DNA from: Candidatus Poribacteria bacterium
GTDB lineage: Bacteria; Abyssobacteria; SURF-5
Length of the DNA: 64,000 nucleotides
Direction: 5' to 3'
NCBI GenBank assembly: GCA_016215705.1
Contig: JACRIR010000053.1
Coordinates: forward strand, 1 to 64,000
Shown: positions 19,547 to 58,261 of the stretch, in pieces
How the letters are laid out: each line of letters begins with the position of its first letter
How positions within the stretch are numbered: the first letter of the stretch is position 1
Made by a program: the position numbers and the translations under genes
The notes under the pieces: model-generated
Told to the model about the DNA's origin: nothing
Databases searched by the model: none
What the model saw: only the letters and a program-made list of their open reading frames with translations

Positions 19547-21022
19547 TCAGGTTATCCCGAGCCAATCCACAAGTTTCCTCGAGTCTCCAACCAGTGTCTT
19601 CGGTGAACTGTAATAGAGAGAAGCGCGAGTCTTGGCCTTCTTCAGCAATAACGACGGCTTTCGGTTGTATCGCTCGAACTTCCGGATCGCCGTTCTTGTG
19701 ATTTCGGAGAATTCACCCGGACTCATGTGCAGTGTAAAGCTGTTGTGGGGACTTTGATGGCTGAACTGGCTCCAGTCGCGGTCTTGCGGGAACAAGCCCG
19801 TCTTGACGGAATTCTCGTAGAGCTCCGTTCCCGGATAGGGCGTGAAAATGCTGAAGGTGCACCAGCATGGTCGCAGCGTGTCAATGCTCTCCAATGTCCT
19901 GGCGATGTCACTGATGTCTTCCTGCGGGAATCCGATCATAAAGAAGGCGGACCAGTAAATCTCGTTTCGGTTGAGCATCTCGGCCACCTCCCGCATTTTT
20001 TCCAAAGTTTCTCCCTTTTTTATCGCCTCAAGAATCCGAGGGCTGCCGCTTTCCACACCTACTTCCACATTGTTGCAGCCGGCGAGCTTCATCTCACTGA
20101 TAAGCTCCTCGTCAAGAAGATCGAACCGGGTATTGCATCCCCATTTGACGTCGAGTTGCTCGCTGCGGATCGCTTCACAGAACTCCAGCGTTCTGTTCTT
20201 CCTTAGCGTGAAGCAATCATCCCAAAAAGTAAATTGGCGGGTTCCAAACTTTTCGCGAATGAACCTGATTTCCTCGATGACGTTGTCGACCGACCGATAT
20301 CTCACCTTGTGCGTCCAGACGGTATGCGCGGCGCAATAGGTGCATCTGAAGGGGCACCCCCGGGTTGTAATCATGTTGCCCATGTTTTCCGGATCGACGA
20401 CCCTGTTTCCGAGCAACAGGTCTCGGGCAGGAAAGGGAATCGAATCGAGGTCATCTATGAGTGTGCGGGTTCGGTTGTGTGTGATTACGCCGTCGGGATT
20501 CTTGTAGGATATGCCTTGCACGTTTCTCAAATCGGACTTAGCCCCCAGGGCATCGATGAGCTCGACAATCGTGGTTTCTCCCTCGCCATGGACAACTATG
20601 TCCAACTCGCCGCGCGAGAGAACTTCGCGGGCGCAGTTGGTCGAGTGCGGCCCGCCCATGATAACGGGGGCATGAGGAAACAGTTTCTTGGATATTGCCG
20701 CGACGGAAACGGCAGAGGCGAACTTTACGGTAGGGGCCGTTATGCCGACGACATCGGGGGCATATCGGCGGATGGTCTCCCCTATTTCCTTCCAAACGGC
20801 ATGTCCGTTGTTCCCGAGAGCGTCCAAATACAGGTTGAAAGAGCTTAGTAGCTCGGAAGAACGCAAATAGCGCTGTTTGTCGTGGAATTCCGCATTGTAG
20901 ATTCTGACATCGTGTCCCCGGTTCCTGAGCACGGCAGCGAGGTATCCGATACCCAGCGGAAACCAATCGCATTTGAAGCGCATGAATCTCTGAAATGGAG
21001 GATCAATCAATAGTATTCTCAT
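19547..21022 (-). CDS. B12-binding-domain radical SAM enzyme 1
   Basis: 491 residues. The N-terminal cobalamin-binding-like Rossmann domain (1-150; PDVVGITAPTVKFASAV, VIMGGPHST, DIVVHGEGE) has no DxHxxG motif, as is usual for this radical SAM class. The linker carries IPFPARDLL. The radical SAM core has C223, C227 and C230 (TRGCPFRCTYC), the 4Fe-4S-binding CxxxCxxC. Members perform radical methylations or carbon-skeleton changes; the substrate here is unknown but presumably a sugar or lipid-linked glycan. The ATG overlaps the preceding glycosyltransferase stop by 4 bp. One of four such genes in this operon. Confidence 0.9.
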   Translation of the reverse strand: MRILLIDPPFQRFMRFKCDWFPLGIGYLAAVLRNRGHDVRIYNAEFHDKQRYLRSSELLSSFNLYLDALGNNGHAVWKEIGETIRRYAPDVVGITAPTVKFASAVSVAAISKKLFPHAPVIMGGPHSTNCAREVLSRGELDIVVHGEGETTIVELIDALGAKSDLRNVQGISYKNPDGVITHNRTRTLIDDLDSIPFPARDLLLGNRVVDPENMGNMITTRGCPFRCTYCAAHTVWTHKVRYRSVDNVIEEIRFIREKFGTRQFTFWDDCFTLRKNRTLEFCEAIRSEQLDVKWGCNTRFDLLDEELISEMKLAGCNNVEVGVESGSPRILEAIKKGETLEKMREVAEMLNRNEIYWSAFFMIGFPQEDISDIARTLESIDTLRPCWCTFSIFTPYPGTELYENSVKTGLFPQDRDWSQFSHQSPHNSFTLHMSPGEFSEITRTAIRKFERYNRKPSLLLKKAKTRASLYYSSPKTLVGDSRKLVDWLGIT

Positions 21023-22161
21023 TTTCCCCTCCCATCGAGCAATGACAGATACAACTGCCCTGTTTTTTTAACCATCTTCTCGAGAGTGAAGTTTTGCATT
21101 ACCCTTTCCTTGGCCGCCATCCCGAGAGCGGTTGCGCGGCGCCGGTCGGACAACAGTCCGATAATGGCGGAGGCAAGCGAAGGCGGGTCCCCCGGCGGAA
21201 CAATCGCCGCCGCCTCGCCCACCATTTCCGCTATCCCTCCCACCTCGGTCGCGGCCACGGGCCTCGCGAGCGCCATTGCCTCCAGCAAAGCCCAGGGAAA
21301 TCCTTCCTTCACGGACGAAAGCGCGAAGACGTCGAATGCCGGAACAAACTGTGTGGCGTCTTCCCTGTAACCATAGAAATGAACTCTATCCTTCAATCCT
21401 TTCGACTCCACCTGCGAGCAAATGTCTGCCAGCATCGGACCGTCTCCTATGAGGACCGCATGAACATCCTTCAGGTTGCGGGACACAATCTCGAAGGCAT
21501 CGACAAAGAAGCCAAGCCCTTTGTTAGGATAGAAATTGGCAATCGTTCCTATGACTCTGCTGTTTGGCGGCAGCCCGATGTCTTCTTTGTTGAACCCGCG
21601 GGTCTGCGCCAGGCCGCCGGCGTCTATGCCGTTGTGTATCGTCGTTATCTTGTCCTCCCTGCATACTCCTTTTTGGAGGGCCGAGCGTCGGTCGTAATCC
21701 GAGACTGCAATAATGTGGTCTCCGAGCCGGGCGCCCAGCTTTTCCTCCATGAGCGCGACGTAGTGTCGGAGGCGGCCGGAAGGCTCGTTGAATGAGAATC
21801 CATGGGCCGTGAACACGATGAGTGGAGTGTGCGCCATGGCTGCCGCAAGCCGTCCGACAAGACCGGCCTTTGTGCTATGGGCCGCTACGATGTCGAATTT
21901 CCCCCCTACGATTATTCGATAGAGTTCCTTTGTGCACGCAGCGTCGAGCAAAGGAGACAGGGACCGCTTCAATGTGGGAAGAGACAGAACCGGCACTCGC
22001 GCTCTTTTCAGCCGCTGGATGAGCCGCTCACCTGTTCCACAAACAACCATCGTCTCGAAGACGGTGTTCAGCCGGCTTGAGAGATGAAAGACGTGGTTGG
22101 CCGCACCTCCCGGTTCAGCCTCGGAATTCGTAATGATTCTGAGTATTCGGTGCGACTTCAT
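21019..22161 (-). CDS. Glycosyltransferase family 4
   Basis: 380 residues with a GT-B fold. The N-terminal acceptor half has PGGAANHVFHLSS; the C-terminal donor half has GTIANFYPNKGLGFFVDAF, VLIGDGPM, VHFYGYRED and the EX7E catalytic/nucleotide-sugar motif E286-E294 (KEGFPWALLEAM). It transfers a sugar from a nucleotide donor with retention, in the cytosol or at the inner-membrane face. ATGA overlaps join it to the genes on both sides, so it is firmly inside the operon. Confidence 0.93.
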   Translation of the reverse strand: MKSHRILRIITNSEAEPGGAANHVFHLSSRLNTVFETMVVCGTGERLIQRLKRARVPVLSLPTLKRSLSPLLDAACTKELYRIIVGGKFDIVAAHSTKAGLVGRLAAAMAHTPLIVFTAHGFSFNEPSGRLRHYVALMEEKLGARLGDHIIAVSDYDRRSALQKGVCREDKITTIHNGIDAGGLAQTRGFNKEDIGLPPNSRVIGTIANFYPNKGLGFFVDAFEIVSRNLKDVHAVLIGDGPMLADICSQVESKGLKDRVHFYGYREDATQFVPAFDVFALSSVKEGFPWALLEAMALARPVAATEVGGIAEMVGEAAAIVPPGDPPSLASAIIGLLSDRRRATALGMAAKERVMQNFTLEKMVKKTGQLYLSLLDGRGK

Positions 22162-23315
22162 GAAAGCAACCCCTTTCCACGTGCCACTTCCCGGTAAAGT
22201 TGCTCGGTTTCAGAGACCATCTTTGCGACACTGAAGCATTGCTCAGCACGCTTCCGGCCGGCTGCCCCCATCTCTCTTGCGCGATAGGGCCGACCCAGTA
22301 TCTTGTTGATGGCCTCAGCCAAAGGGCGCGACTGCGCCGGCGGCACAAGCAGTCCCGTGACGCCATGTTCCACGATTTCGGGTATCGCGTCCACCATCGT
22401 CGAAACGACGGGGAGTCCCGCTGCCATGGCCTCCAATAATACAAGTCCGAAACCTTCGCTAAGTGACGGCAAGACAAAAAGGTCCAACTGCGGCAATATG
22501 GCCGCAACATCCGCCCGATATCCAAGAAAGGTGATTTTCTCGTCGAGATGCAAATCGTGAACCTGGGCCCGGAGAGCCCCCGCAATCGCGGTGTCTTCGC
22601 CCCCGATAACCAGTAGATGCGCCTCCTTGTTCGCTTTCAATACCTCCGGCAAGGCATCAAAAAGATACCTATGTCCTTTTGGGGGCATGAGTCGGGCGAC
22701 TACACCAAGAAGTTTTGTTCCCGGTGGAAGACGAAGCTGATTGCGCAGGTCGTTTGTCCCCGGGTCGGATGATTGCTTGACGTCGTATCCGTAGTGGATG
22801 ACCCTCAGTTTTCCGTTGGAAACGCAACCGTTGCGAACCAGATGTTCTCCTACGGCGCGTGAGATTGCGATTATTCTGTCAGCCATAGCAAAACTGATCT
22901 TTGCAATGCTGTTTGTGGGAAATCTGGCGAAACGCCGACTTGTGTTATGCACCGACACAATCACCGATGGGACCCCGCTCCAACGCGCTGCAGGGATTCC
23001 ATAAAGCTGAGACCTCAGGAGATGAACGTGGACGATATCGAATCTCCCTGCCTTCATGAGGTTAGCCAACCTTCCGAAAGCGCGGAGATCGAGCAGGGAG
23101 CCTGTTTTCAGACTGACCGAAGGGATTCCTCTATCCTCGAACTGCGAAACGAGCGAATCCGACCAGCCTGCCGAATCATCGAGATAAGCATAAACCGGCT
23201 CGAAGGCGGAACGATCAAGTCTGCCCAGCAAACAAAGCAGATGCGCCTCGGCGCCGCCCATCGAGATGCTGTTGGTGACGTGGAGAATCTTCAGTTTTCT
23301 GCCAGTTTTGGCCAC
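22158..23315 (-). CDS. Glycosyltransferase family 4
   Basis: 385 residues. N-terminal MGGAEAHLLCLL, donor half with GVVARLMPPKGHRYLFDAL, HLLVIGGEDT, ITFLGYRAD and EX7E residues E287 and E295 (SEGFGLVLLEAM). The start is GTG at 23315 with AAGGA eight bases upstream; it overlaps the end of the deacetylase gene by 25 bp. It overlaps the next gene by ATGA. Probably adds one residue of the repeat unit. Confidence 0.92.
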   Translation of the reverse strand: MAKTGRKLKILHVTNSISMGGAEAHLLCLLGRLDRSAFEPVYAYLDDSAGWSDSLVSQFEDRGIPSVSLKTGSLLDLRAFGRLANLMKAGRFDIVHVHLLRSQLYGIPAARWSGVPSVIVSVHNTSRRFARFPTNSIAKISFAMADRIIAISRAVGEHLVRNGCVSNGKLRVIHYGYDVKQSSDPGTNDLRNQLRLPPGTKLLGVVARLMPPKGHRYLFDALPEVLKANKEAHLLVIGGEDTAIAGALRAQVHDLHLDEKITFLGYRADVAAILPQLDLFVLPSLSEGFGLVLLEAMAAGLPVVSTMVDAIPEIVEHGVTGLLVPPAQSRPLAEAINKILGRPYRAREMGAAGRKRAEQCFSVAKMVSETEQLYREVARGKGLLS

Positions 23316-24196
23316 TGTTCCAGTCCTTTGTAGTTGATGAGACGAATGCTTTGTTTGTGAACGACTTCCTTCAAACGTTCACTCACGAGCGCGGCGCGTT
23401 CTTCTTCCCTCTGTCTTGCGCGCTGGATCGAGCCACCGAGGAAACCAGCGAGCCTGTCGTCCGCGCTACCCGGATGCGTAAGCATCTCACAGATGCCCGG
23501 TCTGACGTGGCGCATGAGGGCTTCATAACGGCCAACAACACTCAAGGACGGCGGCATGAAACAGCTCGGGAGACTGTAAACACGGTTGATTGTTCTCACG
23601 CCGGCGATGCGCAGCGAAGGGCGCCCGCGACGACACAGGGCGCTCGTAAACCTCTTTTTGGCATGTCGCCACGTTACGAAACCATGCAGAATGCTCGAGA
23701 ATCCGTCAAAATTCGGCGGCTCATAGGGGAGTCTTACAGGCATTCGCGTTTCTTCTGCAACCTTGAGAAAGACCTTGAATATGGTTGGAATCATCATGGT
23801 GTTCTGATGGCTGTCGATGTGTGTGGGTTCGATTCCGGCGTCGAGCGTCTTCTGCAACTGAGCGCGTATCTCGGTTTCCACGTGGCTTACACGCAGCCCT
23901 CCACGCAGCCATTGTTTCAACAGAAGGGACCTTGGAAGAAACTTCCCGTCCGGGCCGACCAGAGAAGAGACGCTGTCTGTCCGCGCCACCGGAGACCCGA
24001 AAGTCAAGTTTATATGCACACCTATTCCGAGAGAGGGGTTCCGTTGCGCGTGGGAGACCGCGTCTTCAAACGCCCATGCGTTGGTCATGAGCGTAGTGCT
24101 TGTGACAATGCCATTTCGGTGGCAATCGATTATGGCGTCGTTAACGCCTTCGGTGAGCCCAAACTCGTCGGCGTTGACGATCAGATACGTTTCCAT
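23291..24196 (-). CDS. YdjC/HpnK-type carbohydrate deacetylase
   Basis: 301 residues of the YdjC (ChbG/HpnK) family. Metal and catalytic positions are visible as NADEFGL (D10), GVHINLTFG (H61) and THIDSHQN (H126, H130). The family removes N-acetyl groups from amino sugars such as chito-oligosaccharides or hopanoid glycosides. I chose the ATG at 24196, preceded by GAGAGGA; an upstream start adds a stretch that looks like the neighbouring frame. Placed between an aminotransferase and a glycosyltransferase, it probably deacetylates a hexosamine of the polysaccharide or its lipid carrier. Confidence 0.9.
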   Translation of the reverse strand: METYLIVNADEFGLTEGVNDAIIDCHRNGIVTSTTLMTNAWAFEDAVSHAQRNPSLGIGVHINLTFGSPVARTDSVSSLVGPDGKFLPRSLLLKQWLRGGLRVSHVETEIRAQLQKTLDAGIEPTHIDSHQNTMMIPTIFKVFLKVAEETRMPVRLPYEPPNFDGFSSILHGFVTWRHAKKRFTSALCRRGRPSLRIAGVRTINRVYSLPSCFMPPSLSVVGRYEALMRHVRPGICEMLTHPGSADDRLAGFLGGSIQRARQREEERAALVSERLKEVVHKQSIRLINYKGLEQWPKLAEN

Positions 24197-24245
24197 TTGA
24201 GTTCCTCTCATAGAGAAAATCCCGAGGCACGGAGCCATCCCTCAA

Positions 24246-25337
24246 CTATTTCAGACACTTCTTGAGTGCTGCGCTGACACGCTCCAACTGGCCGTCACGC
24301 ATGCCCTGATGTACGGGCGCGTACGCCAGCCGCCGGCCAATCCTGCTTGCAATCGGGTACCTCGCTTCATCGACCTCGAGCGGGAGGTCCAACCATAACG
24401 GCCTCACAACGATTCCTTCTCGGAGCATCTGCCGTATGAACGACGGCCGGTCTTGTACGAACAAGGGGAATCCCATCGGACTCACTCCGTCAGAGAGCGC
24501 CCGGGGCAGCGGGCAGCCGTTTGCATGGCCGTCGGTCTCGTGGAGCAGAAAACAGTAGTTCTTTCTTCTAAGCGCCACCGTCGCAGATGAATCGACATGG
24601 GACAGGACCCTTGCCGACACACGCGCTGAGCCTCGAAGAACTGGTGTGGCCGCGGCGTCTCTTGTCGCAACGGCTCGCCGCAGGCCCTCGTTCTTCAGGA
24701 GCCAAAGGCGTGGAGAAACACGCAGAAGGTTTTCGGCATATCTTGCGAAGTATCTTGATGTCGAAAGCAATTCAGACAACAGAGGACGTGAGAGAGTCAA
24801 CGAGAAAAGGTGATGCGCCTCATTCCACGCGAGTATGCCGCCGCCGGGCGCAGGAAGAACCTTTCGAATGCTGAAGAATGAAAAAGCGCCGGATGAGCCG
24901 AGGCGCTTGCCGTCCACGCGAGAATAAAGAGCGTGGGCGCAATCCTCAATCAATAGCATACCAGTTCGCTTGCAGAACTCGACCGTCTCTTGCATCGGTT
25001 GCGGGAATCCAAGGTAGTGAATGACGACCATGGCTTCGGCCCGTTCTCTATGCTTTTCGAGCCATTCAAGGTCGGGGCTAAGGTCGTCTCGAAGCTCATA
25101 AAACACGGGAATGGCCTTGACCGCCTTCGTTGCCGAGACCAGAGCGCCACAGCATAGCGCCGGCAGCAGAATCCGTGTCTGCTCCCGCAGCCTCAGCATG
25201 CGGAGACCCAGAGCATACGCATTCCTGCCGCCGGAAGTCAGAATAACGTCCTGCTCCCATGAGAAACCACGCGCGCTTTCTCTACCCAGCAAATCGGCAG
25301 GTCTTGGCGGCGGTTCCGGAGTAATGAGTGATCTCAT
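24246..25337 (-). CDS. DegT/DnrJ/EryC1-like sugar aminotransferase
   Basis: 363 residues. The pattern of PLP-dependent sugar aminotransferases is present: TSGGRNAYALGL near residue 35, LPALCCGALVSAT, VVIHYLGFPQ, the PLP-contacting EDCAHA (131-136) and FSFFSIRKVLPAPGGG, with K159 as the likely Schiff-base lysine. The serine-arginine-lysine context is less common than the usual SxxK but keeps the lysine. It is predicted to aminate a nucleotide-activated keto sugar. The start is the ATG at 25337 (GGGAG upstream); a TTG five codons earlier is possible. An acyltransferase gene precedes it, which fits making an acylated amino sugar. Confidence 0.82.
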   Translation of the reverse strand: MRSLITPEPPPRPADLLGRESARGFSWEQDVILTSGGRNAYALGLRMLRLREQTRILLPALCCGALVSATKAVKAIPVFYELRDDLSPDLEWLEKHRERAEAMVVIHYLGFPQPMQETVEFCKRTGMLLIEDCAHALYSRVDGKRLGSSGAFSFFSIRKVLPAPGGGILAWNEAHHLFSLTLSRPLLSELLSTSRYFARYAENLLRVSPRLWLLKNEGLRRAVATRDAAATPVLRGSARVSARVLSHVDSSATVALRRKNYCFLLHETDGHANGCPLPRALSDGVSPMGFPLFVQDRPSFIRQMLREGIVVRPLWLDLPLEVDEARYPIASRIGRRLAYAPVHQGMRDGQLERVSAALKKCLK

Positions 25338-25382
25338 TCCGACTCCCGGCAAGCTATGCGCAATGATCCACTGTTTCTTGCC

Positions 25383-26507
25383 TTAAATCCTCGATATTCT
25401 GATCCGGCCGGCGACTCTGCGAACAAGCTCCGACTCGCGGGCCGCTTCCCGGGCGGAAAGAAACGCAAGATACGATCCCAGAATGAATGGCGCCATTGAA
25501 CCTCGTTTTGTAAAGATGATCCGTCTTGCCACAACAGATGAAGTCGCCTTGCGTTCTTTGTACTCAAGCCGACCCTTGCCGAATTCAATGCGCCCAATCC
25601 CCCGCTCGCGGCTGTCCCTCATGATGTCTTCCAGCAAAACAGACCCGGGCGAAAGGCCGGCGAATTGAGGGTCGAACGCAGGGTTGTAGTAGTAAAGCGT
25701 TCCATTGAAACAAAAGCACAACGCATATGCCACGACCCTTTCGTCGAGAGCGAGAACCGCAAGGTAGAGCGAGTCTCGCTCGAGATAGGCCATCGAAATA
25801 TCCCGGATGAAAGCCCTGCCGTCAGGAGTATTCATGAGCGACCCGGTGTAGTACCCGTTCCACCGACGCCGGTGAACTTCGAATATCTGCGGCAAGACCG
25901 CCTGAAGCTCGCCTGCGCTGTTGACGACTCTGAATTCCACCCTGGCGCCGCCACCCAGTTTTCTGCGCGCCCGCTTCAAGTTGTATTTGTGCTTTCGTGA
26001 CGGCTCACCCGCAAGGGGCCACGACCGCAAATCGAGGCTGAAGAACGGCTCATCCGGAGTCTTGCCTTCGGCGAAAACAAAAGCGTCCTTGCGCGCCAGA
26101 ATCGCCTCGAGCAACCCGGAATCCGATCTGACGTCGTCTATATCGCACAAATCCCATTGGCGTCCCTTCACAAGGATTTCATTGACCATGGTTTCGTAGG
26201 CGTCACAAGAGCGGTCCCCGGCAAACGGAAAATCACACGGCGCCGCGTGCGGCGCTCCTGCCAAAACGAGCGTTCTCATGCCAAGGAAATGTTTGCGCAC
26301 GGCGAGCGGAAGAACCGCTGCAAGCCGCCCTTCTTTCCATGCAGTTGCGACCATCGGGTCAAACCGATCTCCGAGATGCCTAAACCATTTCTCCAGCCAT
26401 ACCGGCCCGTTGAAGAGCGTATGAGGGGCGGCGCTTAGGGCAAATTCCTCCCACGGGCGCTCAAGTTCCGCGATATCATCGGCTTTGTGAAACGTCTTTA
26501 TTTCCAA
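25383..26507 (-). CDS. FemAB/BioF2-like GNAT acyltransferase
   Basis: 374 residues of the large GNAT-like acyltransferase family often found in exopolysaccharide loci (CelD/FemAB-like). Visible features are PVWLEKWFRHLGD, RKHKYNLKRARRKLG, FEVHRRRWNGYY, and FCFNGTLYYYNPAFDP followed by SPGSVLLEDIMRD. These proteins move an acyl or aminoacyl group to an amino sugar. The start appears to be TTG at 26507 and overlaps the polymerase gene stop by 10 bp; no strong ribosome-binding site is present, so coupling to upstream translation is likely. Confidence 0.82.
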   Translation of the reverse strand: MEIKTFHKADDIAELERPWEEFALSAAPHTLFNGPVWLEKWFRHLGDRFDPMVATAWKEGRLAAVLPLAVRKHFLGMRTLVLAGAPHAAPCDFPFAGDRSCDAYETMVNEILVKGRQWDLCDIDDVRSDSGLLEAILARKDAFVFAEGKTPDEPFFSLDLRSWPLAGEPSRKHKYNLKRARRKLGGGARVEFRVVNSAGELQAVLPQIFEVHRRRWNGYYTGSLMNTPDGRAFIRDISMAYLERDSLYLAVLALDERVVAYALCFCFNGTLYYYNPAFDPQFAGLSPGSVLLEDIMRDSRERGIGRIEFGKGRLEYKERKATSSVVARRIIFTKRGSMAPFILGSYLAFLSAREAARESELVRRVAGRIRISRI

Positions 26508-27997
26508 TTGTCCCGGTTTCCCTTCTGCTTCATCGGCGCGTCAAGAGCGGGCGCTTGCGCTCCGGAACCATTCACCGGCGCATAAATCAGTGCGGTGTTC
26601 AACCAGAAGAACACTTGAAGAAAGTTGTTTCCGTGATAACTGAGCAGAGATATGCTGAGCGATGCAAACATGTACGCGACAAAAGAAACAAAGAGAGCCG
26701 AATATATCCATGCCATGTCTTTACCGCCGGCATCGGACATGGCAAGGGACTTCCTCAGCGTTTGCAGAAGAAGATAAACAGCCATGGCAAACGCAATCGC
26801 CCCATGATCGAGGAGTATCTGCAGGTACTCATTGTGAGTCTTGCCTGCCGGGTTTACCACGCCTCGAGCCCAGCCTGCAAACATGATTCGCTCGTTTGAG
26901 AAAACGGAAGGGTCCGCGAATATTTCCATGCCGTATCCGTTCACTCCAAATCCCCAAAGAGGGTGTCTCACAAATATCTGCGGGGCCGTCTTCCAGAGAA
27001 TCAAACGACCGAACGTGCTCGACTCCTCCGCCGCGTATGGAGACTTGAAGTATCCGTGAATACTCTCGAACACTTCCTGCACCTTCGGGAAGACAACGGC
27101 CGAGTTAAGAAATACGGCGATCAATGCCACGGGAATGACCCACAAGGTTTTGCGATCTCTCCTGAGCCATAGCATTCCGGCAACGGCGCCACAAAGCGCA
27201 AGGTAAAACGTTCGTGTCCCCTGCGGAATGAACGGGAAGAGGATGAACGCCATGAGCGCCAACTTGGCCGGACTGCGCTTCTTCTCGTATAGAAGAAACG
27301 CTATGGCGGGAATTATCAGCAAGAGAGAATTCGGATTGCTTTTGAGGTCGCCGCGCAAGCTGTATTCATTGGTCCCAAATACGCTCTGATCCCCGAAGAA
27401 GATCACTCCCCGCTGCGCCTCATATATTGCCACTGCGGCAAGGAATGCTGCGCAAATTATCTGCCATCTCACAATCTTTTCAATTTGCTCCTTGCTGTCA
27501 ATGCAGACAACAAGCGCAAACATCACAACCGTGAATTCAAGCAACTGAATGAATGGCTTTGCGGACGCTTCCATGAAGAGGCGTCGCGGGAAGTACAGAA
27601 ATCCCAGAGCTTCCGAGAAAAACACAAGAAGCAGAAGAAGCAGCATGAATTTTGCCTCGCGCGAGAGCGCGACGCGCGCGCGTTTCACCACAATGCGAAT
27701 AAAGGCATGCGCTCCCATAAGCGCGACAAGCACGTCGAACGGCGTGATGTCACCGAGAATGTTGACGGGGCCGCGCGTAATCAGAGAAGAGGTCATGAGG
27801 AGTATCACCAGCAGACAGAAATTGCGGACGGCGAATACGGCGACACCGGCGCCGATAAGCGCAAGGGCGCGCCAGGGCGAAGTCTCGAACAGGGCAAGCG
27901 ACAGAAAGTACGCGGCAGCCAGCCCCGCCCCCCAAATAGTCCAAAGCGTGACGTTGATCGGCATCATTCTCGAAATGCTATGTTCATCCCTCGACAT
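26498..27997 (-). CDS. O-antigen ligase/polymerase-like membrane protein
   Basis: 499 residues with about a dozen hydrophobic segments. It carries the Wzy/WaaL-type region: FVRHPLWGFGVNGYGMEIF and then AGKTHNEYLQILLDHG, which contains the conserved histidine-glutamate. Members polymerise lipid-linked repeat units or ligate glycan to a carrier in the periplasm. The ATG at 27997 has AAGGA upstream and overlaps the radical SAM gene by 14 bp. A second protein of this fold is encoded at 41916-43925, so one may polymerise while the other ligates. Confidence 0.88.
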   Translation of the reverse strand: MSRDEHSISRMMPINVTLWTIWGAGLAAAYFLSLALFETSPWRALALIGAGVAVFAVRNFCLLVILLMTSSLITRGPVNILGDITPFDVLVALMGAHAFIRIVVKRARVALSREAKFMLLLLLLVFFSEALGFLYFPRRLFMEASAKPFIQLLEFTVVMFALVVCIDSKEQIEKIVRWQIICAAFLAAVAIYEAQRGVIFFGDQSVFGTNEYSLRGDLKSNPNSLLLIIPAIAFLLYEKKRSPAKLALMAFILFPFIPQGTRTFYLALCGAVAGMLWLRRDRKTLWVIPVALIAVFLNSAVVFPKVQEVFESIHGYFKSPYAAEESSTFGRLILWKTAPQIFVRHPLWGFGVNGYGMEIFADPSVFSNERIMFAGWARGVVNPAGKTHNEYLQILLDHGAIAFAMAVYLLLQTLRKSLAMSDAGGKDMAWIYSALFVSFVAYMFASLSISLLSYHGNNFLQVFFWLNTALIYAPVNGSGAQAPALDAPMKQKGNRDNWK

Positions 27998-31911: not shown

Positions 31912-31913
31912 AA

Positions 31914-32618: not shown

Positions 32619-33841
32619 AGGTCCTCCAATGCCGCAATGATCGTCTCAGCCCTCTTGCCGAACGTATACTTCTCATTCACTTCCCTGTAAGCGGTCTCGC
32701 TGATTTTGCGCGCAAGCTCCTTATCTTCAAGCGCGACGGCAATTCCTTCTGCGAGTGATTCCGGAGAGTCCGGTCGCACAAGTATTGCATTCTCCTTGTG
32801 TCGAAGGATTTCCCTCGTGGAAGGCAGGTCCGACGCCACAATCGGTTTGCGGGCCGCCATGTATTCAAACTGCTTCATCGAGGACGCAAAATTGCGTGTT
32901 ACTTCATCATCGACCAGCGGCATGACGAGCACGTCCGGTCTTGAAAGAAATGATCCGATGCGCGAAGGCGCGACAAATCCGGTGAAGGTTATCCTGTTTT
33001 CCACACCAAGAGAGCGCGCCAAATTGGAGAGTCTCTCGATATCCTTCCGATTATCGCTTCCTCCCACGATCAGGAGTCTGACCGACTTGTCCAGCAATGG
33101 CATTGCCTGAACGAGCACGTCTACGCCTCTCGAAGGAAAAAGCTGGCCGACGTAGCCCACGAGCGAAGTATGTCCGTTGTTCGGGGGGGGGCCCGGCTCC
33201 ATGTCAATCCTCCTTGCGGCGTCGGGCGCGACGACTATCTTTTGACAGGAGCCGGGATACTCACTTGAAAGTATTTCCGCAAGTCTGCGGGTTAAAACGA
33301 AGACGGCGCTTGCTTTCCGAATGGCGCGGCGCTCAAATGAAGAGTAAAGCCTGATCTTCAATGAATTCACCGGTCTGGATTCGCCGTACCACCTTTGACT
33401 ATGGTTGAGCGAAACTCGAATGGAGTTGTGGGCTTCATATGCAAACCTGGTCGGGCCTCGGAGCCCCGGTACACGGGTCAGCAAAGAAAGCATGGAGGCG
33501 TCCCTGGAAAAAATGACGACGTTGTGAGCGCGGCCGGCAATGCCGAGAACCGAACGAATCAGCAGCGCGCGATACAGAAGGTTGTCGGCTTTGCCGACGA
33601 TCCTGGTCCGTGAATGTGCAAGCGGAATAGAATGAATCTCGAATGCGGGATTCGCATTCAGCCCGTAATACTCCCGTATCTTTTCGGGACCCCAGCCGGA
33701 CGCATTGCGCAGAATAAGGTAAACGCGCGCCAGGCCGGTTTGTGCAAGCGAATCGCAAGTGTTCAAGGTCTGGATCATATTCGCCATCTGCGAAGGGAAT
33801 CCGATATTGGTGTACGGATAAATTATCGTAAACTCCTTCAT
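32609..33841 (-). CDS. Glycosyltransferase family 4 (variant donor motif)
   Basis: 410 residues. N-terminal half starts FTIIYPYTNIGFPSQMAN; donor half has LVGYVGQLFPSRGVDVLVQAM, LLIVGGSDNRKDIERL, ITFTGFVAPSRI and MKQFEYMAARKPIVASDLP, a GT4 variant in which EX7E is reduced to a single conserved Glu. The ATG at 33841 (AAGGTG upstream) lies five bases after the stop of the previous gene; an alternative GTG sits three codons earlier. Confidence 0.85.
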   Translation of the reverse strand: MKEFTIIYPYTNIGFPSQMANMIQTLNTCDSLAQTGLARVYLILRNASGWGPEKIREYYGLNANPAFEIHSIPLAHSRTRIVGKADNLLYRALLIRSVLGIAGRAHNVVIFSRDASMLSLLTRVPGLRGPTRFAYEAHNSIRVSLNHSQRWYGESRPVNSLKIRLYSSFERRAIRKASAVFVLTRRLAEILSSEYPGSCQKIVVAPDAARRIDMEPGPPPNNGHTSLVGYVGQLFPSRGVDVLVQAMPLLDKSVRLLIVGGSDNRKDIERLSNLARSLGVENRITFTGFVAPSRIGSFLSRPDVLVMPLVDDEVTRNFASSMKQFEYMAARKPIVASDLPSTREILRHKENAILVRPDSPESLAEGIAVALEDKELARKISETAYREVNEKYTFGKRAETIIAALEDLCR

Positions 33842-33846
33842 CGCGT

Positions 33847-34950
33847 TCACCTTATCTTCGCCAGGAATTGGTTGGCGGAACGTTCAAGCGTGAAGGCTCG
33901 CGCCCGTTCGAGTCCGAGACGCTTCATCTGTTCGGCGAGAGTCCGGTCATTAAGCAGTTCGACGACGCGCCCTGCAAAAGCCTCGACATTGTGGGGCGGA
34001 ACGAGAAACGGACTCAGCGATTCACCTACCAGTTCGGCTACGCCCCCAACGTCTGTGGCGACAAATGGAACGCCCATTGCCATCGCCTCCAACAACACAT
34101 GCGGCGCCCCTTCGGCCTCAGAAGGCATAATCAACAGGTCTGCATCCGAATAGATACGCGGCATTTCAGAATTGGGAACAGCGCCGCACATCGTGACATT
34201 CGGAAGCTTACTTATCTCATCCCAATACTTCCCTCGACCCGCCACAAAAAATCTGGAGTGCGGCGCGGATTCGAGGACGAGGGGGATTATCCGGCGGAGA
34301 TGATGAGCCCCCTTTTCCTTCGAGAGTGTGTGAACGAAGAGAATGTGCTTCCGGCCATTCCTTGATCGGTCCCGGGTCCGCAAATCGTGGACAAACCGTG
34401 TATGCGAAACGTATGGAGGCAATATCACGAACTTGCCACCGGGTAAACCGTACTTTTCCTGATACCACCGGGCCACCGAGGGCGAAGCGGTCACAACGAA
34501 GTCGGATGACCGGAATGAAGCGGACTTGAGCAATGGGTGCAATTTCCTCATGATTCGCGAGCCGGCCTCGCCATTGGATTCCCCGCAATGACAATGCCAT
34601 TGGTAAACTCTTCCTCCGGCAATGCAGGTGACCACGCGGGCAAGGAGCGCATTCCATAGTGAATAGTGGATGTAAAAAGCCCCGTAACCGAGGAATCGAG
34701 CCAACAGGAAGACGGCGAGCGTCTCGAACATTCTGAGCGGCTTGAACGCGAACTTGTTCACATGGAAGAGTCGCGCGAATTCAGGAGCAGTCTGACCGGC
34801 CGAACGCGTCACAATGAGAAAGACGTCGCATCGATCGGAAATCGAACGCAAAAGGTCGCTCACGTGCTGAAGATGATCCGCGCTTTTCTCGTCCAGTTCA
34901 GGCAAGTAGCAACAGACTTTGGCCTTATTCCGCTTTGAAGATATCTTCAC
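33847..34950 (-). CDS. Glycosyltransferase family 4
   Basis: 367 residues. Donor half with HILFVHTLSKEKGAHHL, SRFFVAGRGKYWDEI, VTMCGAVPNSEMP and EX7E in AEGAPHVLLEAM. I place the start at GTG 34950, because GAGG lies just upstream and the GTGA overlaps the stop of the methyltransferase gene by 4 bp, the same coupling pattern as elsewhere in the operon. An upstream TTG would add five residues. Confidence 0.88.
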   Translation of the reverse strand: MKISSKRNKAKVCCYLPELDEKSADHLQHVSDLLRSISDRCDVFLIVTRSAGQTAPEFARLFHVNKFAFKPLRMFETLAVFLLARFLGYGAFYIHYSLWNALLARVVTCIAGGRVYQWHCHCGESNGEAGSRIMRKLHPLLKSASFRSSDFVVTASPSVARWYQEKYGLPGGKFVILPPYVSHTRFVHDLRTRDRSRNGRKHILFVHTLSKEKGAHHLRRIIPLVLESAPHSRFFVAGRGKYWDEISKLPNVTMCGAVPNSEMPRIYSDADLLIMPSEAEGAPHVLLEAMAMGVPFVATDVGGVAELVGESLSPFLVPPHNVEAFAGRVVELLNDRTLAEQMKRLGLERARAFTLERSANQFLAKIR

Positions 34951-35735
34951 CGTGGCCTCACACAAAGAAGTAGATATTCATTGCCGAATGTTAGCGGGCC
35001 GATGCCGAATGATCCGAACCGGAGGATTCCGGAAATCCTTCGCTCGAGGGAAACAAGCTTCCCGGACCGCGCCCGCGCGGCGACAACAGACCGCAACGGG
35101 TATTGGAATCCCACGAGTTTGTGAGCGACCATGGTCAACCGGGCCTCGGCAAGCATCGGGCGCATTCGCGCTATGCTCGTAAAATGAAGGTGTTCGTTGA
35201 ATCTCTTCTTCCGCCCATTCAGATATTTGAGTCTTGAAAGCGTGCTGATCACGGCGGGCTGCATGATGGAGTCAGCCGGAGCGCTAATCAGGCATCTTCC
35301 GTCCCGACGCAGAAGGCGCCCTATTTCCACAAGAAGCGAGAGCGGGTCGAGAACGTGCTCAAGCAGCTCAAAGCAGAAGACCATATCAAACGAAGCGCTC
35401 TTTAGTGGAACGCATTCCGCATCGGCGGCAATGGTGTGACAGCGTTCGATGCGGCCGCGCATGACTCTCAGCTTGGAGAACGAAAGGTCAAGGCCGATAC
35501 AGACTGAACACGGCTGCCTGCCCAGCGCGTGTTCGGTGGCGTAGCCGTCACCGCATCCGAGATCGAGCACCCGCGCAGCGGGCGAAAACGGCAGATGCCT
35601 CGCGGCGAAGTCGGCTATCTCCCTCAGCCGCAGGTATTGCGCGTAGGTTCGCGTCCGATCCGCTTTGTACATTCTCTGCTCGTCGTCGCTTTGCTGAGAG
35701 TAGTAGCGGATGAGGTAGTCTTTAGTGATGTCCAT
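34947..35735 (-). CDS. SAM-dependent methyltransferase (class I)
   Basis: 262 residues. Motif I is VLDLGCGDGYATEHALG, followed by CIGLDLSFSKLRVM and FDMVFCFELLEHV. The N-terminus (ITKDYLIRYYSQQSDDEQRM) is helical. It resembles methyltransferases of surface-glycan loci and probably methylates a sugar hydroxyl. The ATG at 35735 has a weak GGCGAG site and overlaps the upstream glycosyltransferase gene by 14 bp. Confidence 0.87.
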   Translation of the reverse strand: MDITKDYLIRYYSQQSDDEQRMYKADRTRTYAQYLRLREIADFAARHLPFSPAARVLDLGCGDGYATEHALGRQPCSVCIGLDLSFSKLRVMRGRIERCHTIAADAECVPLKSASFDMVFCFELLEHVLDPLSLLVEIGRLLRRDGRCLISAPADSIMQPAVISTLSRLKYLNGRKKRFNEHLHFTSIARMRPMLAEARLTMVAHKLVGFQYPLRSVVAARARSGKLVSLERRISGILRFGSFGIGPLTFGNEYLLLCVRPR

Positions 35736-36921
35736 TCGTTTCGCTCGCCTGCAAGAACATTCGATGATAGCCCTTGAGAATCGACTCTTCACTATACTTG
35801 GCCAGGAGATGGCTTCGAGCGGCCCGCCCCATTTCCGCCGCCTTTACAGGGTCGCGGAGAAGCTCGAGCGTTGTTCCCGCCAATTGAGCCGGGTTGTCCC
35901 TTTCCACGATAAAACCGGTCGTTCCGTCTATTATCGCGTCGGATGCGCCACTCACATCCGTTGAGACCGAGGGGCGCCCCGCTGCCGCAGCCTCCAGGAC
36001 TACGATTGCGTTTCCCTCATAAAGAGAGGGCAATATAAAGACGTCGCACGCCGCGAAATACTCAGGCAGTTGCTGGTGTTCTATGGCGCCGAGAAAAACG
36101 ACTTTCTGTTCCAGACCTAGTCTCCGGACGCGCTCTTCGAGGTCGGCCAGCTCACGCCCCTGCCCGATGACAAGGAGCAACGCCGTGTTCCATGACTCGG
36201 AGATTATCTTCATAGCCGAAATAAGATTGTGAACGTTTTTCTGTTTGACCAGGCGTCCAACGAACAGCAAGAGGCGGTCGAATCTGTCGACAAGAAGGCG
36301 GGCGCGAACATCTTCTCCACGCGCGGAGGCGAACCGCGTAAAGTCGGTAAGCCAGCCGATCTCGTGTATGCGCTCCTGAGAAACACCCATCGCGGTCAGC
36401 TTCTCACGCTCGGACGCGCTGCAAACCCTGAATCCCGCCCCTCGTTTTATCAGCCATTTGCCGACGGCATTCATGAACCTGTTCCTCGGCGACTCTCTGC
36501 GCCAGTATGGGTTGTCAATCATGTCGCCCGCAAAGGAAAAAACAACCGGCTTCTCGAACACTCGCCCGAGAACATAACCGACCACGCCTGATGAGAATGG
36601 GTCTTGCGTGTAGACGACGTCAATCGGCGTTCTCCGCATTATCTCCGATCCCAGTTTCACCGCATCGGCCATGAAACCGACGCGCCCTCGGGAATTGGTC
36701 GGATATAAAAAGCATCGATCCCCCAGACGCGACTCCCGTTGGATCGCCGAGTGGAAACTACGCATCACGATATGAATGCTGTCGCATACGGACTGCAAAG
36801 CCATGACCCGGCGCGTTGAATCGCCCAGTCGCCCATCCGTGCCCTTGGCCAGATTTGAATCAAGGCTTATGCACAGGACACGCGGCAAACGTTGATTTTT
36901 CTGTTCGTAAACCGTATCCAA
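35722..36921 (-). CDS. Glycosyltransferase family 4
   Basis: 399 residues. Acceptor half with VVYTQDPFSSGVVGYVLG; donor half with LLLFVGRLVKQKNVHNLI, LLVIGQGRELADLEERV, VVFLGAIEHQQLPEYF and EX7E in LYEGNAIVVLEAAA. The start seems to be TTG at 36921 with AAGGT eight bases upstream, three bases after the stop of the radical SAM gene. The enzyme is predicted to add one sugar of the repeat unit. Confidence 0.87.
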   Translation of the reverse strand: MDTVYEQKNQRLPRVLCISLDSNLAKGTDGRLGDSTRRVMALQSVCDSIHIVMRSFHSAIQRESRLGDRCFLYPTNSRGRVGFMADAVKLGSEIMRRTPIDVVYTQDPFSSGVVGYVLGRVFEKPVVFSFAGDMIDNPYWRRESPRNRFMNAVGKWLIKRGAGFRVCSASEREKLTAMGVSQERIHEIGWLTDFTRFASARGEDVRARLLVDRFDRLLLFVGRLVKQKNVHNLISAMKIISESWNTALLLVIGQGRELADLEERVRRLGLEQKVVFLGAIEHQQLPEYFAACDVFILPSLYEGNAIVVLEAAAAGRPSVSTDVSGASDAIIDGTTGFIVERDNPAQLAGTTLELLRDPVKAAEMGRAARSHLLAKYSEESILKGYHRMFLQASETNGHH

Positions 36922-36924
36922 TGT

Positions 36925-38358
36925 TCAGACCTTCAAACGGCTGTGAATGGAGCGCAAACACTTCCCCATGTATGACCCGTTCAACGTGCGTCGCAAAAGG
37001 AAATCCACGAGCCTGGCGTCATAAGGCAACTGCAGAAACTGGCGCTTCAGCCGGAATTCGGCGACCATATCGAGCAACGGCAACCGATAGTTCAGGAATT
37101 TGAGATATTCACGTATCCAATAGAGATCATCGCTCTTGGCCCATGGCAGCCTCAGCATGGGGCTCCATCTGTCCATGATGCCCCACCCCTTTGTTGTGCC
37201 AGGTGGCTCAAAACCCTCGGCCAGCGCTATTTCATAGAGCGCGGTTCCCGGATACGGAAGATAGGGGCCGACCGTTATTGTCTTGTTTCGATGGACTTTA
37301 TGAATCCACAGAAGCATTTCGATCGTCTTCTTCAACTCTTCCGGCTTCTCGGTCGGCAGACCCGTTATGGCGGAATAGCCGACCCTCAAGTCATATTTGG
37401 CAAGAAGTTTCACGGCTTTCTTGATGTCTTCGCAGGTTATCTTCTTGCCCAGGAGATTCAGAATGCGGTCACTGCCTGACTCGACTCCAATCAGCAGGTC
37501 AAATACGCCGAACTCTTTAAGTCGCTGGAGCAGGGTCTCGTCAACCAGATCGATACGGATATCGGTCTTGGCGGGAATAGCGATACCTGCGAGAATCTCG
37601 ACGGCCCGTTTCTTGTTCACGAAGAAGGTGTCGTCATAGAAACATACGGCATCGATGCCGTACTCTCGCTTGAGAAAGCCGATTTCCTCGATGACGCGAT
37701 CCGGTGACTTGGCGCGCCAGCGTCCCCGATTGAATCGCTGGTTATAGCAGAACGCGCATTGATAGGGACACCCTCTGCTGGTCTTGTAGGCAACAACGCG
37801 CGAGAAGCTCCTCAGCCGGGTAAAATAGGAGGGAACATCAAGCAGATCAAACCGAAGCCGATACTTATCATTGTCCAGATTCTCGATAAAAGGTCTCGGA
37901 GCATTAAGTCGAACTGTGCCGCGGCTCTTGTATCCCAGCCCTGGTATCGAGTCGAAGCTTTTCGTGTGGTCGAGCATCCGCGCGAGGTCAATTGCCGTCT
38001 CTTCACCCTCGCCAACCACGACAAAGTCGATGTAGTCTTCGCCCAGGCATTGCTGTGGAACGAGGGAAGGATGAATGCCTCCCCACACGATGGGAATGGT
38101 CTCGTCGGAGCGCCTGATTGCTTCGGAGAGAAGCGCGGAATGAAGCGTCTGGGGCCCGGTCATAACGGAGAACCCCACAAAGAGCGGCTTTTCCTTCACT
38201 ATCCCGGCGCTGGTCGCCTCGATCTGTTTCTCCGTGCAGTGGATGATACGGACGTCGAAGCCAACGTTCTTGAGAGCGCTTCCCACGTGGAGTAAACCGA
38301 GCGGCATTATGTCAGTGGAAAAATCGCCGCTGTTTTCCACCTGAACGAGACATATCAT
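36925..38358 (-). CDS. B12-binding-domain radical SAM enzyme 3
   Basis: 477 residues. The B12-binding-like domain has IMPLGLLHVGSALKN, PLFVGFSVMTGPQTLHSAL and IVWGGIHPSLVPQQ. The radical SAM cysteines are C197, C201 and C204 (SRGCPYQCAFC); FYDDTFFVNKKRAVEIL and GVESGSDRILNLLGKKI follow. It lacks the PARxL linker of the other three, so it is the most divergent copy. The ATG at 38358 has GGAGAG six bases upstream and overlaps the glycosyltransferase stop by 4 bp. Confidence 0.9.
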   Translation of the reverse strand: MICLVQVENSGDFSTDIMPLGLLHVGSALKNVGFDVRIIHCTEKQIEATSAGIVKEKPLFVGFSVMTGPQTLHSALLSEAIRRSDETIPIVWGGIHPSLVPQQCLGEDYIDFVVVGEGEETAIDLARMLDHTKSFDSIPGLGYKSRGTVRLNAPRPFIENLDNDKYRLRFDLLDVPSYFTRLRSFSRVVAYKTSRGCPYQCAFCYNQRFNRGRWRAKSPDRVIEEIGFLKREYGIDAVCFYDDTFFVNKKRAVEILAGIAIPAKTDIRIDLVDETLLQRLKEFGVFDLLIGVESGSDRILNLLGKKITCEDIKKAVKLLAKYDLRVGYSAITGLPTEKPEELKKTIEMLLWIHKVHRNKTITVGPYLPYPGTALYEIALAEGFEPPGTTKGWGIMDRWSPMLRLPWAKSDDLYWIREYLKFLNYRLPLLDMVAEFRLKRQFLQLPYDARLVDFLLRRTLNGSYMGKCLRSIHSRLKV

Positions 38359-39578
38359 TTCCAACTCTCCAATTTTGCTTCAACTCGAGCCCGCTCCCGC
38401 AAATCGCAGCGCCCGGCCCGTTCAATGGCAAACCGATAAAGGTTCACGACTTCATCCAGATTCTCTTCGATATCGAATCTTCTTGCATGTTCGGCGGCGA
38501 ACTGTCCCATGGCTATACGAAGGTCGTCATGGTCAATCAGTGTCTGCAGACGGGCCGCCATTTCCGCCGTGTCGCCCGCGCTAACCAGATAGCCTGCGCG
38601 TCCGTGGGGCACTACGTCGGGCACGCCGCCGGTGTTGACCGCCACAACCGGCAATCCCGCAGCCATCGCTTGCACGAGAGCGATTCCGAACGGTTCGTAG
38701 CGGCTGGCCGAGCAGAAGATGTGGGCGCTTTGAAAATGTTCTTTCATTCCCGTGGGGGACTCCGGTCCAACCAGGCAAACATAGTTTTCCAGCCCCATTT
38801 CTCGCGTCATTATTTCCAGCCGCGAGGTTATTTCCCGGTTCTCTCCGCCGACGATCTTCAACCTGACACGACGCTTGTCAAGCACGCTGAACGCAGTAAG
38901 CACGTCCTCGACGCGCTTCCAGCGCGCGAACCGGCACGCCGAGAGTATTGTCAATTGCCCGTTCGTCCCGGCACACGAATCGGTCGCTGCCCGCCTGTCC
39001 AATCGGATGAAGTTGGGCATGGTGACCACTTTTTCCGCGGACACTCTGTGGTAGTCGTAAACCGACCGAGTTTGAAAGGTGGACGTCGACCAAACGGCGT
39101 CAAACAGCGAAAAGCAGTATCGCTCAAGCATCGCCAGCGCTCTCGCCGGAAGCGAACTCGTGAAGACTCCTTCGTATGAGCCTGCATAACCCTTTGAAGC
39201 GGTCCTCTCCCAAACAAGGTCTCCGGCATACTTGACGACAGAGGGTATTCCCAGCTTCCGCGCAACCCGTCCTGACACGAGACAGAGGTAATTCATGCCG
39301 GAGACGTGGTGTACAACGTCAGGCCGTGTCTCCGTCAGAATTCTCATGGATTGATGATAGGCATTCGCGTACTTTGTCGGCGCAGAGAGTCCTCCGCCGA
39401 ATTCCCGCAATCGGTGAACCGGAATCCCGTCAACGCTCTCGAACGAGTTGTCTTCCCCGAACGTGATGACAAAGGCGTCAAAACCCCTTTGTCTGAGTTC
39501 AAGCGCCAGATGATACGTCTGGGTCGAGGGACCGCTTATTCGCGGCGGGAATACACTGGTAAACAGGCAGACTCTCAA
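38355..39578 (-). CDS. Glycosyltransferase family 4 with Gln in the EX7E motif
   Basis: 407 residues with clear GT-B structure (RISGPSTQTYHLALELRQRG, LTILSACRFARWKRVEDVL, LKIVGGENREITSRL). The donor motif reads YEPFGIALVQAMAAGLP: the first Glu is kept, and Gln replaces the second. The start is probably TTG at 39578, with GAGGTG five bases upstream overlapping the end of the radical SAM gene region; the predicted N-terminus (RVCLFTSVFPP) matches the family exactly at this point. Confidence 0.88.
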   Translation of the reverse strand: MRVCLFTSVFPPRISGPSTQTYHLALELRQRGFDAFVITFGEDNSFESVDGIPVHRLREFGGGLSAPTKYANAYHQSMRILTETRPDVVHHVSGMNYLCLVSGRVARKLGIPSVVKYAGDLVWERTASKGYAGSYEGVFTSSLPARALAMLERYCFSLFDAVWSTSTFQTRSVYDYHRVSAEKVVTMPNFIRLDRRAATDSCAGTNGQLTILSACRFARWKRVEDVLTAFSVLDKRRVRLKIVGGENREITSRLEIMTREMGLENYVCLVGPESPTGMKEHFQSAHIFCSASRYEPFGIALVQAMAAGLPVVAVNTGGVPDVVPHGRAGYLVSAGDTAEMAARLQTLIDHDDLRIAMGQFAAEHARRFDIEENLDEVVNLYRFAIERAGRCDLRERARVEAKLESWK

Positions 39579-39581
39579 TTA

Positions 39582-41117
39582 TCACCTCGCAACCAGGCGC
39601 GATTTGACTCGGAACACTTCAGCGGCCTTTCGCACGCGCCGCCTTCCCTTGGTCGAGAACGCATGCATGACCGCAAGATGCGTCGCCATAAGAACCGATT
39701 GCTCCAGCGCATATAGCGGATGCTTCCAAAGATTCGTGGATATATGAAACTTGTAGTTGGTCGGAAGTGAGACCTCTCGTTCAAATTTTGCGAAAAGCTC
39801 GTTGAATCGCTGCGGCGTCATGTCGGCGAACGTGAAATCCGCGGCGACATATTTGTCCCACAGGTCATCCCAGTTGTCCGGCTTGCTTATTATTCCGTTC
39901 GCAAGGAACTCCTTGTAAAGTCGCGTGCCGGGAATCGGATACAACTTCCCTTTGTTTATCCGGTCCGGATGACACCTCTTCAGGAACGATATCGTTGCGA
40001 GAATGTCATCTGCCGTCTCCGTGGGAAGCCCCATCATCATGTTGACTTCGCACGAGATGCCGGCCTCTTTCGTGTGCCTGACGGCGGCTTCGTTTTGTTC
40101 CACGTTGGCTTTCTTGCCTAACAGATCGAGTATCCGTTGAGAGCCGCTTTCACACCCGTAAATAATCCGGACGCATCCTGCTTCCCTCATGAGCTTCAGC
40201 AAAGCGGGCGTGACGCAATCCACCCTAAGATTCGTCCCCCATCGAATCCTGCCGGATATGCCGGAACTGAGCATTTTCTCGCACAGCAATTCGACACGCG
40301 CCTTGCGAAGCGCGAATATGTCCTCGGCGAACAGAATGCCGTCCACTCCATATTCGTTCATGAGATGGGTGATTTCATTCATGACATACTCCGGCGACTG
40401 GAATCTCACGTAAGGGCCCGTGTTGGCGGCGGCGAGGCAGTCCCTTGCGCAATAGCTGCATGAGTACGGACATCCGCGAGTTGTAAACACGTTCGTGGCA
40501 TTGAGGAAAAAGCCTCGCAAAGTTGTGCCGTTGCTGCTGAAATAGGTTTGCCGGTCCAGCAGATGACGCGCTGGATAAGGCAGTTGATCGAGGTCCTGCA
40601 CAAACGCTCTTATGGGATTGTGGATGATTCCCAGGCCGCCGCGGAGCGTCAAACCCTTGATAGTGGGGAATGGCGCGCCCGAGGCAATCTCGCACATTAC
40701 CTCTTCACCCTCTCCCCTGACAACTGCGTCTATCTCCGGGCATTGATCGAGCGTGCTTGCGGGCTCAACCGTGGCATGACATCCTCCAACTATCACCTGA
40801 ATGGAAGAATCGAGTCGCTTCACGATCTTTGCCGTCCTGTAAGCATCGGATATCTGCGTGGTCGTGGCGGTAACACCCACGATCGCGGGACCGAATCCGC
40901 CCAGGACAGCGCGCGTTAAATCATCAAGAGCCGCCAGGTTTTCATGCGTCCTCTTGCGTCCGCCGATAAGCCACCGCCTCTCCAGGATTCTCACCTCATG
41001 CCCCGCCTTCTCGAGGGCGGCGGCGATATATGCGATTCCCAGCGGCGGCCATTTTGCGGCCAGATCGTTTTCCCACATGGAATTCTGAATGAGAGGATTG
41101 ATAAGACACACTCGCAT
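39582..41117 (-). CDS. B12-binding-domain radical SAM enzyme 4
   Basis: 511 residues, the longest of the four. B12-binding-like domain (KWPPLGIAYIAAALEKAGH, PAIVGVTATTTQISDAY, VIVGGCHATVEPA), linker LPYPARHLL, cysteines C216, C220 and C223 (TRGCPYSCSYC), and GCESGSQRILDLLGKKA. The ATG at 41117 has a strong GGAGGT site. It follows the polysaccharide deacetylase gene by two bases. A C-terminal region beyond residue 400 has no recognised domain. Confidence 0.9.
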   Translation of the reverse strand: MRVCLINPLIQNSMWENDLAAKWPPLGIAYIAAALEKAGHEVRILERRWLIGGRKRTHENLAALDDLTRAVLGGFGPAIVGVTATTTQISDAYRTAKIVKRLDSSIQVIVGGCHATVEPASTLDQCPEIDAVVRGEGEEVMCEIASGAPFPTIKGLTLRGGLGIIHNPIRAFVQDLDQLPYPARHLLDRQTYFSSNGTTLRGFFLNATNVFTTRGCPYSCSYCARDCLAAANTGPYVRFQSPEYVMNEITHLMNEYGVDGILFAEDIFALRKARVELLCEKMLSSGISGRIRWGTNLRVDCVTPALLKLMREAGCVRIIYGCESGSQRILDLLGKKANVEQNEAAVRHTKEAGISCEVNMMMGLPTETADDILATISFLKRCHPDRINKGKLYPIPGTRLYKEFLANGIISKPDNWDDLWDKYVAADFTFADMTPQRFNELFAKFEREVSLPTNYKFHISTNLWKHPLYALEQSVLMATHLAVMHAFSTKGRRRVRKAAEVFRVKSRLVAR

Positions 41118-47181: not shown

Positions 47182-47202
47182 TGTTTCAAATCCCACCCTT
47201 CG

Positions 47203-48468: not shown

Positions 48469-48531
48469 TCCCGCCTCCCTTTTCTTTAGACATGACAAGC
48501 GAAGAGGAAACACAGCCACTAGAAGGATCGT

Positions 48532-57324: not shown

Positions 57325-57352
57325 TTTATCACTAAAAGTGTTGAGTTGTCAA
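57325..57352 (-). promoter_or_regulatory. Sigma-70-type promoter of the GT-C-like gene
   Basis: On the minus strand a perfect TTGACA (57347-57352) is followed after 16 bases by GATAAA (57325-57330). The leader to the GTG at 57151 would be about 165 nt. Confidence 0.45.
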
Positions 57353-57393
57353 GGAATGCCGCTGGCAACTCGCAACCAACGACCTTCGGGTGT

Positions 57394-58240: not shown

Positions 58241-58261
58241 TCATAGACCAACAAAGGTATT

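Follow-up and report, generated by a model that had tools for sequence, protein, structure and literature searches.

An operon on the minus strand of the window (the whole stretch of DNA that was analysed, positions 1 to 64,000 of contig JACRIR010000053.1 from a Candidatus Poribacteria genome) combines the genes of a Wzx/Wzy-type exopolysaccharide pathway with four genes for B12-binding radical SAM proteins, designated rSAM1 to rSAM4. It is somewhat probable that these four are glycan-tailoring enzymes of the pathway, acting mainly by changing the carbon skeleton or oxidation state of lipid-linked or nucleotide sugars. The enzyme class is known, and its setting here is one for which no characterization was found in the open-access literature: no open-access full text was on point for B12-radical-SAM enzymes in polysaccharide loci (subscription journals lie mostly outside that scope).

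The operon runs from position 48990 to position 18118 (31 kb) and consists of 25 genes on the same strand, with no gap larger than 30 bases; neighbouring genes often overlap by the four bases ATGA. A scan for promoters in the region before the first gene found no sigma-70-like site. The first gene encodes a small secreted protein with a signal-peptide-like start (48532..48990) and is separated by 12 bases from a gene for a putative outer-membrane beta-barrel protein (47203..48519), so named from its position and sequence. A Wza-type export protein (46228..47196; TIGR03028 172 bits and TIGR03027 112 bits, both under the cut-offs), a Wzc-type chain-length regulator/tyrosine kinase (43938..46214; TIGR01007 176 bits, above the cut-off), a second Wzy/O-antigen-ligase-like membrane protein (41916..43925; a hydrophobic sequence with a weak IctB match of 37 bits) and a NodB-type polysaccharide deacetylase (41120..41914; PF01522 91 bits) are followed by rSAM4. 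Seven GT4 glycosyltransferases, lettered from the downstream end, are distributed through the remainder: g (38355..39578; PF00534), f (35722..36921; PF00534 139 bits), e (33847..34965; PF00534), d (32609..33850; PF00534), c (29369..30457; PF13692/PF00534, with the start MKVLFFGSY), b (22158..23315; PF00534/PF13439) and a (21019..22161; PF00534/PF13439). Interspersed with them are two class I SAM methyltransferases (34947..35792, PF08241; 31914..32618, PF13489), a Wzx-type flippase (30454..31911; PF13440 243 bits), a Wzy/O-antigen ligase-like polymerase (26498..27997; PF04932), a GNAT-type acyltransferase (25383..26507; PF13480), a DegT-family aminotransferase (24246..25352; PF01041) and a YdjC/ChbG-type carbohydrate deacetylase that resembles HpnK (23291..24238; PF04794 204 bits, HpnK model 147 bits against a cut-off of 232.6). 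The last gene encodes the polyprenyl glycosylphosphotransferase (18118..19542; TIGR03025 398 bits, above the cut-off), the initiating sugar-1-phosphate transferase, which lies 4 bases from rSAM1. With an initiating transferase, Wzx, Wzy, Wzc, Wza and several glycosyltransferases in one operon, the Wza-like protein being below the equivalog cut-offs, this is by gene content a Wzx/Wzy-type exopolysaccharide operon. A second set of GT2/GT4 genes lies on the plus strand past 57 kb (57332-62000 and locus L104) and runs beyond the end of the window.

The four radical SAM genes (rSAM1, 19547..21022, 491 residues; rSAM2, 27984..29372, 462 residues; rSAM3, 36925..38358, 477 residues; rSAM4, 39582..41117, 511 residues) are intact minus-strand reading frames with the boundaries given in the initial annotation, the length of rSAM3 being counted from an ATG upstream of which the ORF finder prolongs the frame to a TTG at 38364. 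All four proteins score above the Pfam cut-offs for the B12-binding domain PF02310 (65-83 bits, cut-off 32.1; 75.7 bits for rSAM1) and the radical SAM domain PF04055 (73-93 bits, cut-off 29.5; 92.7 bits for rSAM1). The CxxxCxxC iron-sulphur motif is present in each (at positions 223, 202, 197 and 216 of rSAM1 to rSAM4, respectively) and invariant in an alignment of 24 proteins, and the GGxH motif is intact in all four. By domains and motif the proteins belong to the class of cobalamin-binding radical SAM enzymes, and they are predicted to bind and use cobalamin. As the initial annotation had it, most of the copies overlap a GT4 gene by ATGA: rSAM1, rSAM2 and rSAM3 each share 4 bases with the GT4 gene upstream, whereas rSAM4 has gaps of 2-3 bases to its neighbours. 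The copies also differ mostly in their C-terminal parts, with pairwise identities of 24-37% over the B12-binding and radical SAM parts versus 10-18% over the last ~90 residues.

The four proteins had been called paralogues, a term that holds only with a qualification: a tree of 130 sequences (a quick build with SH-aLRT support only, in which 51 of 127 inner branches are weak) places them in four separate lineages and not as one duplicated set, which rules out tandem duplication. The closest relative of rSAM1 (56% identity) is fused to a GT2 domain in a Chloroflexota metagenome-assembled genome (MAG; locus L019); the best relatives of rSAM3 (41%, genome G286) and rSAM4 (40%, genome G076) are found near GT4, asparagine-synthase-like and DegT genes and amid GT4 genes, respectively; and rSAM2 has no close relative, its best matches having only 33-37% identity. 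Because the lineages are separate, with their nearest relatives in genomes outside the host phylum, and because the two sister genomes of its family (G001 and G002) contain no orthologue of any of the four, the copies were probably recruited one by one. Together with the C-terminal divergence, the four lineages support the earlier suggestion that the copies act on different substrates. In other genomes, orthologues of rSAM3 and rSAM4 directly adjoin radical SAM genes whose products have a SPASM-type C-terminus (L135:6860-7933 and L043:2415-3467).

Such a history, with each copy from a different lineage and lacking a sister-genome counterpart, and with rSAM2 lacking any close relative, is also what would be expected if polysaccharide loci gather genes from elsewhere and the four were, in part or entirely, passengers whose unrelated work lies in peptide, cofactor or phosphonate chemistry. 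That explanation is made highly improbable by the tight coupling of the four to GT4 genes, by the lack of any noticed RiPP precursor or transport genes in the operon, and by the genomic association of their relatives with glycosyltransferases. The host genome contains 19 B12-radical-SAM genes, ten of which have a GT4 or GT2 domain no more than 3 kb away, versus 5.8% of the genome covered by such zones (p ~2.5e-8), so that the presence of four copies in one operon is not a matter of chance; with this contig left out, 6 of 15 are within the same distance (p ~1e-4). In other genomes, a glycosyltransferase is located within 5 kb of 58 of the 102 relatives fetched, compared to 4 of 20 control regions of the same genomes (Fisher p 0.002), where the relatives were picked by similarity to glycan-locus proteins and do not represent the superfamily as a whole. 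Some four in ten of these relatives have no glycosyltransferase within 5 kb, and therefore the superfamily is not glycan-specific. Similar radical SAM genes are situated among epimerase and glycosyltransferase genes on annotated Solidesulfovibrio and Lawsonia plasmids.

rSAM1 belongs to a tight clade (SH-aLRT 99) that is always found beside glycan genes: all seven members are near a glycosyltransferase or a glycosylphosphotransferase, and in four of the seven (the window, L019, L095 and L101) the distance to a glycosylphosphotransferase is no more than one gene. Because L095 and L101 belong to the same family, these are three independent cases of proximity. In the Chloroflexota groundwater MAG (L019:10001-12499), one open reading frame of 832 residues encodes a radical SAM domain followed in frame by a GT2 domain; this is a single MAG gene, and a one-base error that removed a stop codon could account for it. 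The initial annotation envisaged that each copy would have its own conserved GT4 neighbour, for which the orthologous loci of rSAM2, rSAM3 and rSAM4 offer no support: no radical SAM-GT4 pair is kept, and rSAM1 alone keeps a neighbour, namely the polyprenyl glycosylphosphotransferase. The broader claim of a role in a glycan pathway is upheld by operon membership, by the genome-wide and cross-phylum association with glycosyltransferases, and by the natural fusion to GT2.

The assertion that ordinary polysaccharide loci have no such genes was too strong. They are frequent in the sampled genomes, with four B12-radical-SAM genes amid glycan genes in each of G073:C40 (L045/L046) and G088:C31 (L050/L136) and three in G088:C162 (L051), and this combination occurs widely across the uncultured genomes of the sample. 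Elsewhere in the host genome (L004:5884-10542, G000:C228), a B12-radical-SAM gene sits between genes that, to judge from their sequences, resemble the heptose-pathway genes for HldE and GmhB and a gene resembling that of a heptosyltransferase, a hint that a core sugar of LPS may be modified. Genes resembling the alpha and beta subunits of 2-oxoacid dehydrogenase E1 are near B12-radical-SAM genes in three glycan loci (L019:4671-8217; L151:1398-3345; L045:18980-19969 with L046:2-1015), accompanied by an E2-like gene in L019; L019 and L151 also have a gene for a DegT aminotransferase nearby, and a sugar-precursor route is possible from these gene contents.

Comparison with curated families revealed no close likeness of the four to HpnJ, HpnR, BchE or any other curated family, so the finding that the initial annotation named as refuting its view did not arise, and no copy reaches the NCBIfam cut-off of any family. 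The three highest NCBIfam scores for rSAM1, rSAM3 and rSAM4 are those of ApyD, HpnJ and BchE, which are also among the top four for rSAM2, where PhpK is third. For rSAM1 to rSAM4, respectively, the scores are 190, 176, 134 and 171 bits with HpnJ (TIGR03471, cut-off 577.6), 189, 153, 145 and 185 bits with BchE (TIGR02026, cut-off 481), 137, 112, 73 and 77 bits with AprD4 (NF033070, cut-off 500), 119, 113, 84 and 72 bits with the hopanoid C-3 methylase HpnR (TIGR04367, cut-off 650), and 95, 75, 78 and 88 bits with B12_rSAM_oligo (TIGR04295, cut-off 400), all so far under the cut-offs that they cannot assign a reaction. The best match of the AlphaFold model of rSAM1 (pLDDT 92) among all PDB entries is AprD4 (TM 0.71/0.76, E 1e-25). 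For the model of rSAM4 (pLDDT 86), which like that of rSAM1 shares the overall fold of AprD4, TsrM and AprD4 (TM 0.67/0.74) are about equal as the best matches, and therefore structure does not decide the chemistry.

The initial annotation took the four to be methylcobalamin-dependent C-methyltransferases that act on unactivated sugar carbons to give branched or C-methyl sugars. Most characterized Cbl-radical-SAM enzymes do methylate (PMC13142503), the best structural matches include TsrM, MgmA, CysS and TokK, and the models of PhpK and of the Sden_1168 P-methyltransferase also give scores. Two of the three best-scoring families, however, are listed as non-methylating enzymes that form or rearrange rings (HpnJ and BchE; PMC13142503), and the solved structure that fits rSAM1 most tightly is that of a diol dehydratase, which leaves C-methylation in particular rather doubtful; by analogy, ring contraction as in HpnJ or deoxygenation as in AprD4 would fit at least as well. 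HpnJ works on a lipid-attached glucosamine, once the glycosyltransferase HpnI and the deacetylase HpnK have acted (PMC12583986). Because the top family scores include the non-methylating HpnJ and BchE, because the substrate of HpnJ is lipid-linked, and because the fold of rSAM1 is nearest to AprD4, a change of the carbon skeleton, or deoxygenation, of lipid-linked sugars is favoured over C-methylation with modest confidence.

The HpnK-like deacetylase gene is three genes from rSAM1 and bears on the question of whether the four enzymes modify not a sugar of the polymer but its carrier lipid or some other lipid of the membrane, such as a hopanoid-like or isoprenoid compound. HpnJ, HpnR, calditol synthase (Cds) and the ladderane and GDGT ring enzymes all work on lipids; against this, the host genome has no hopene cyclase above the cut-off and no HpnJ, four distinct lipid changes within one polymer operon would be odd, and the glycosyltransferase fusion and association point to sugars, so that modification of a lipid is unlikely. 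A hopanoid pathway in the host was rejected on a best hopene cyclase score of 44 bits against a cut-off of 431 and the lack of HpnJ in a MAG that is 92% complete. A deacetylase as a general companion of these radical SAM genes, considered in view of the HpnK parallel, was likewise rejected: YdjC was found in the window only, and NodB-type genes elsewhere only in L012 and L149.

In the favoured model of glycan tailoring, the polyprenyl glycosylphosphotransferase would place the first sugar on undecaprenyl phosphate, the seven GT4 enzymes would lengthen the chain, Wzx would flip it, Wzy would polymerize it, and Wzc and Wza would export the product. Near the glycosyltransferase step that adds a given sugar, one of the four B12-radical-SAM enzymes, by means of cobalamin and a SAM-derived radical, would attack that sugar at an unactivated carbon in a lipid-linked (or sugar-nucleotide) intermediate. 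The likeliest chemistry would be a change of carbon skeleton or oxidation state, either contraction of the ring to a carbocycle (as by HpnJ and calditol synthase) or 1,2-diol deoxygenation (as by AprD4), with C-methylation as the second choice. A bolder and tentative proposal, possible but on balance not expected to hold, is that B12-radical-SAM enzymes constitute a large undescribed layer of bacterial glycan biosynthesis, in which separate, C-terminally tuned lineages rebuild sugar carbons on lipid-linked intermediates, up to four per operon, to give polymers whose carbocyclic, branched or deoxygenated residues would be new. The open-access literature searched does not describe radical attack on the carbons of sugars while a cell-surface polymer is being assembled; if such attack occurs, there would be a class of bacterial polysaccharides with residues missed by routine sugar analysis. 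The radical SAM-GT2 fusion and the pairing of rSAM1 with the glycosylphosphotransferase offer a direct route to testing sugar-carbon chemistry.

Among known systems, the bacteriohopanetetrol cyclitol ether route of HpnI, HpnK and HpnJ resembles the operon in that it employs a glycosyltransferase, a deacetylase and then a radical SAM enzyme that acts on a lipid-attached sugar, three kinds of enzyme that the operon also contains, and in that HpnJ is near the top of the family scores for all four copies; it differs in that the glycosyltransferases of the operon are GT4, the carrier is presumably undecaprenyl phosphate, there are four copies with scores of 134-190 bits compared to 577.6, and the host has no hopene cyclase. 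AprD4, the radical SAM 1,2-diol dehydratase of apramycin biosynthesis, has the same overall layout as rSAM1, acts on an amino sugar and was solved with its aminosugar substrate paromamine, but it shares 24% identity with rSAM1 over the structural alignment, its model gives the four copies 73-137 bits where 500 are required, and it comes from a secondary-metabolite pathway with a soluble substrate. TIGR04295 (B12_rSAM_oligo) is a curated yet uncharacterized B12-radical-SAM family, with one of its two copies in genome G261 between an SDR gene and a GT4 gene (L167); it is nevertheless a separate family, present in 1 of 376 genomes, with which the four copies score 75-95 bits against 400. The Cbl-radical-SAM methylases TsrM, CysS, TokK and MgmA have the same fold, a B12 domain plus a radical SAM barrel, but 15-21% identity, different substrates and different C-terminal domains. 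Calditol synthase, compared by description, is a radical SAM enzyme that contracts the ring of a lipid-linked hexose, glucose (PMC9385802), although it is archaeal and works on a GDGT lipid.
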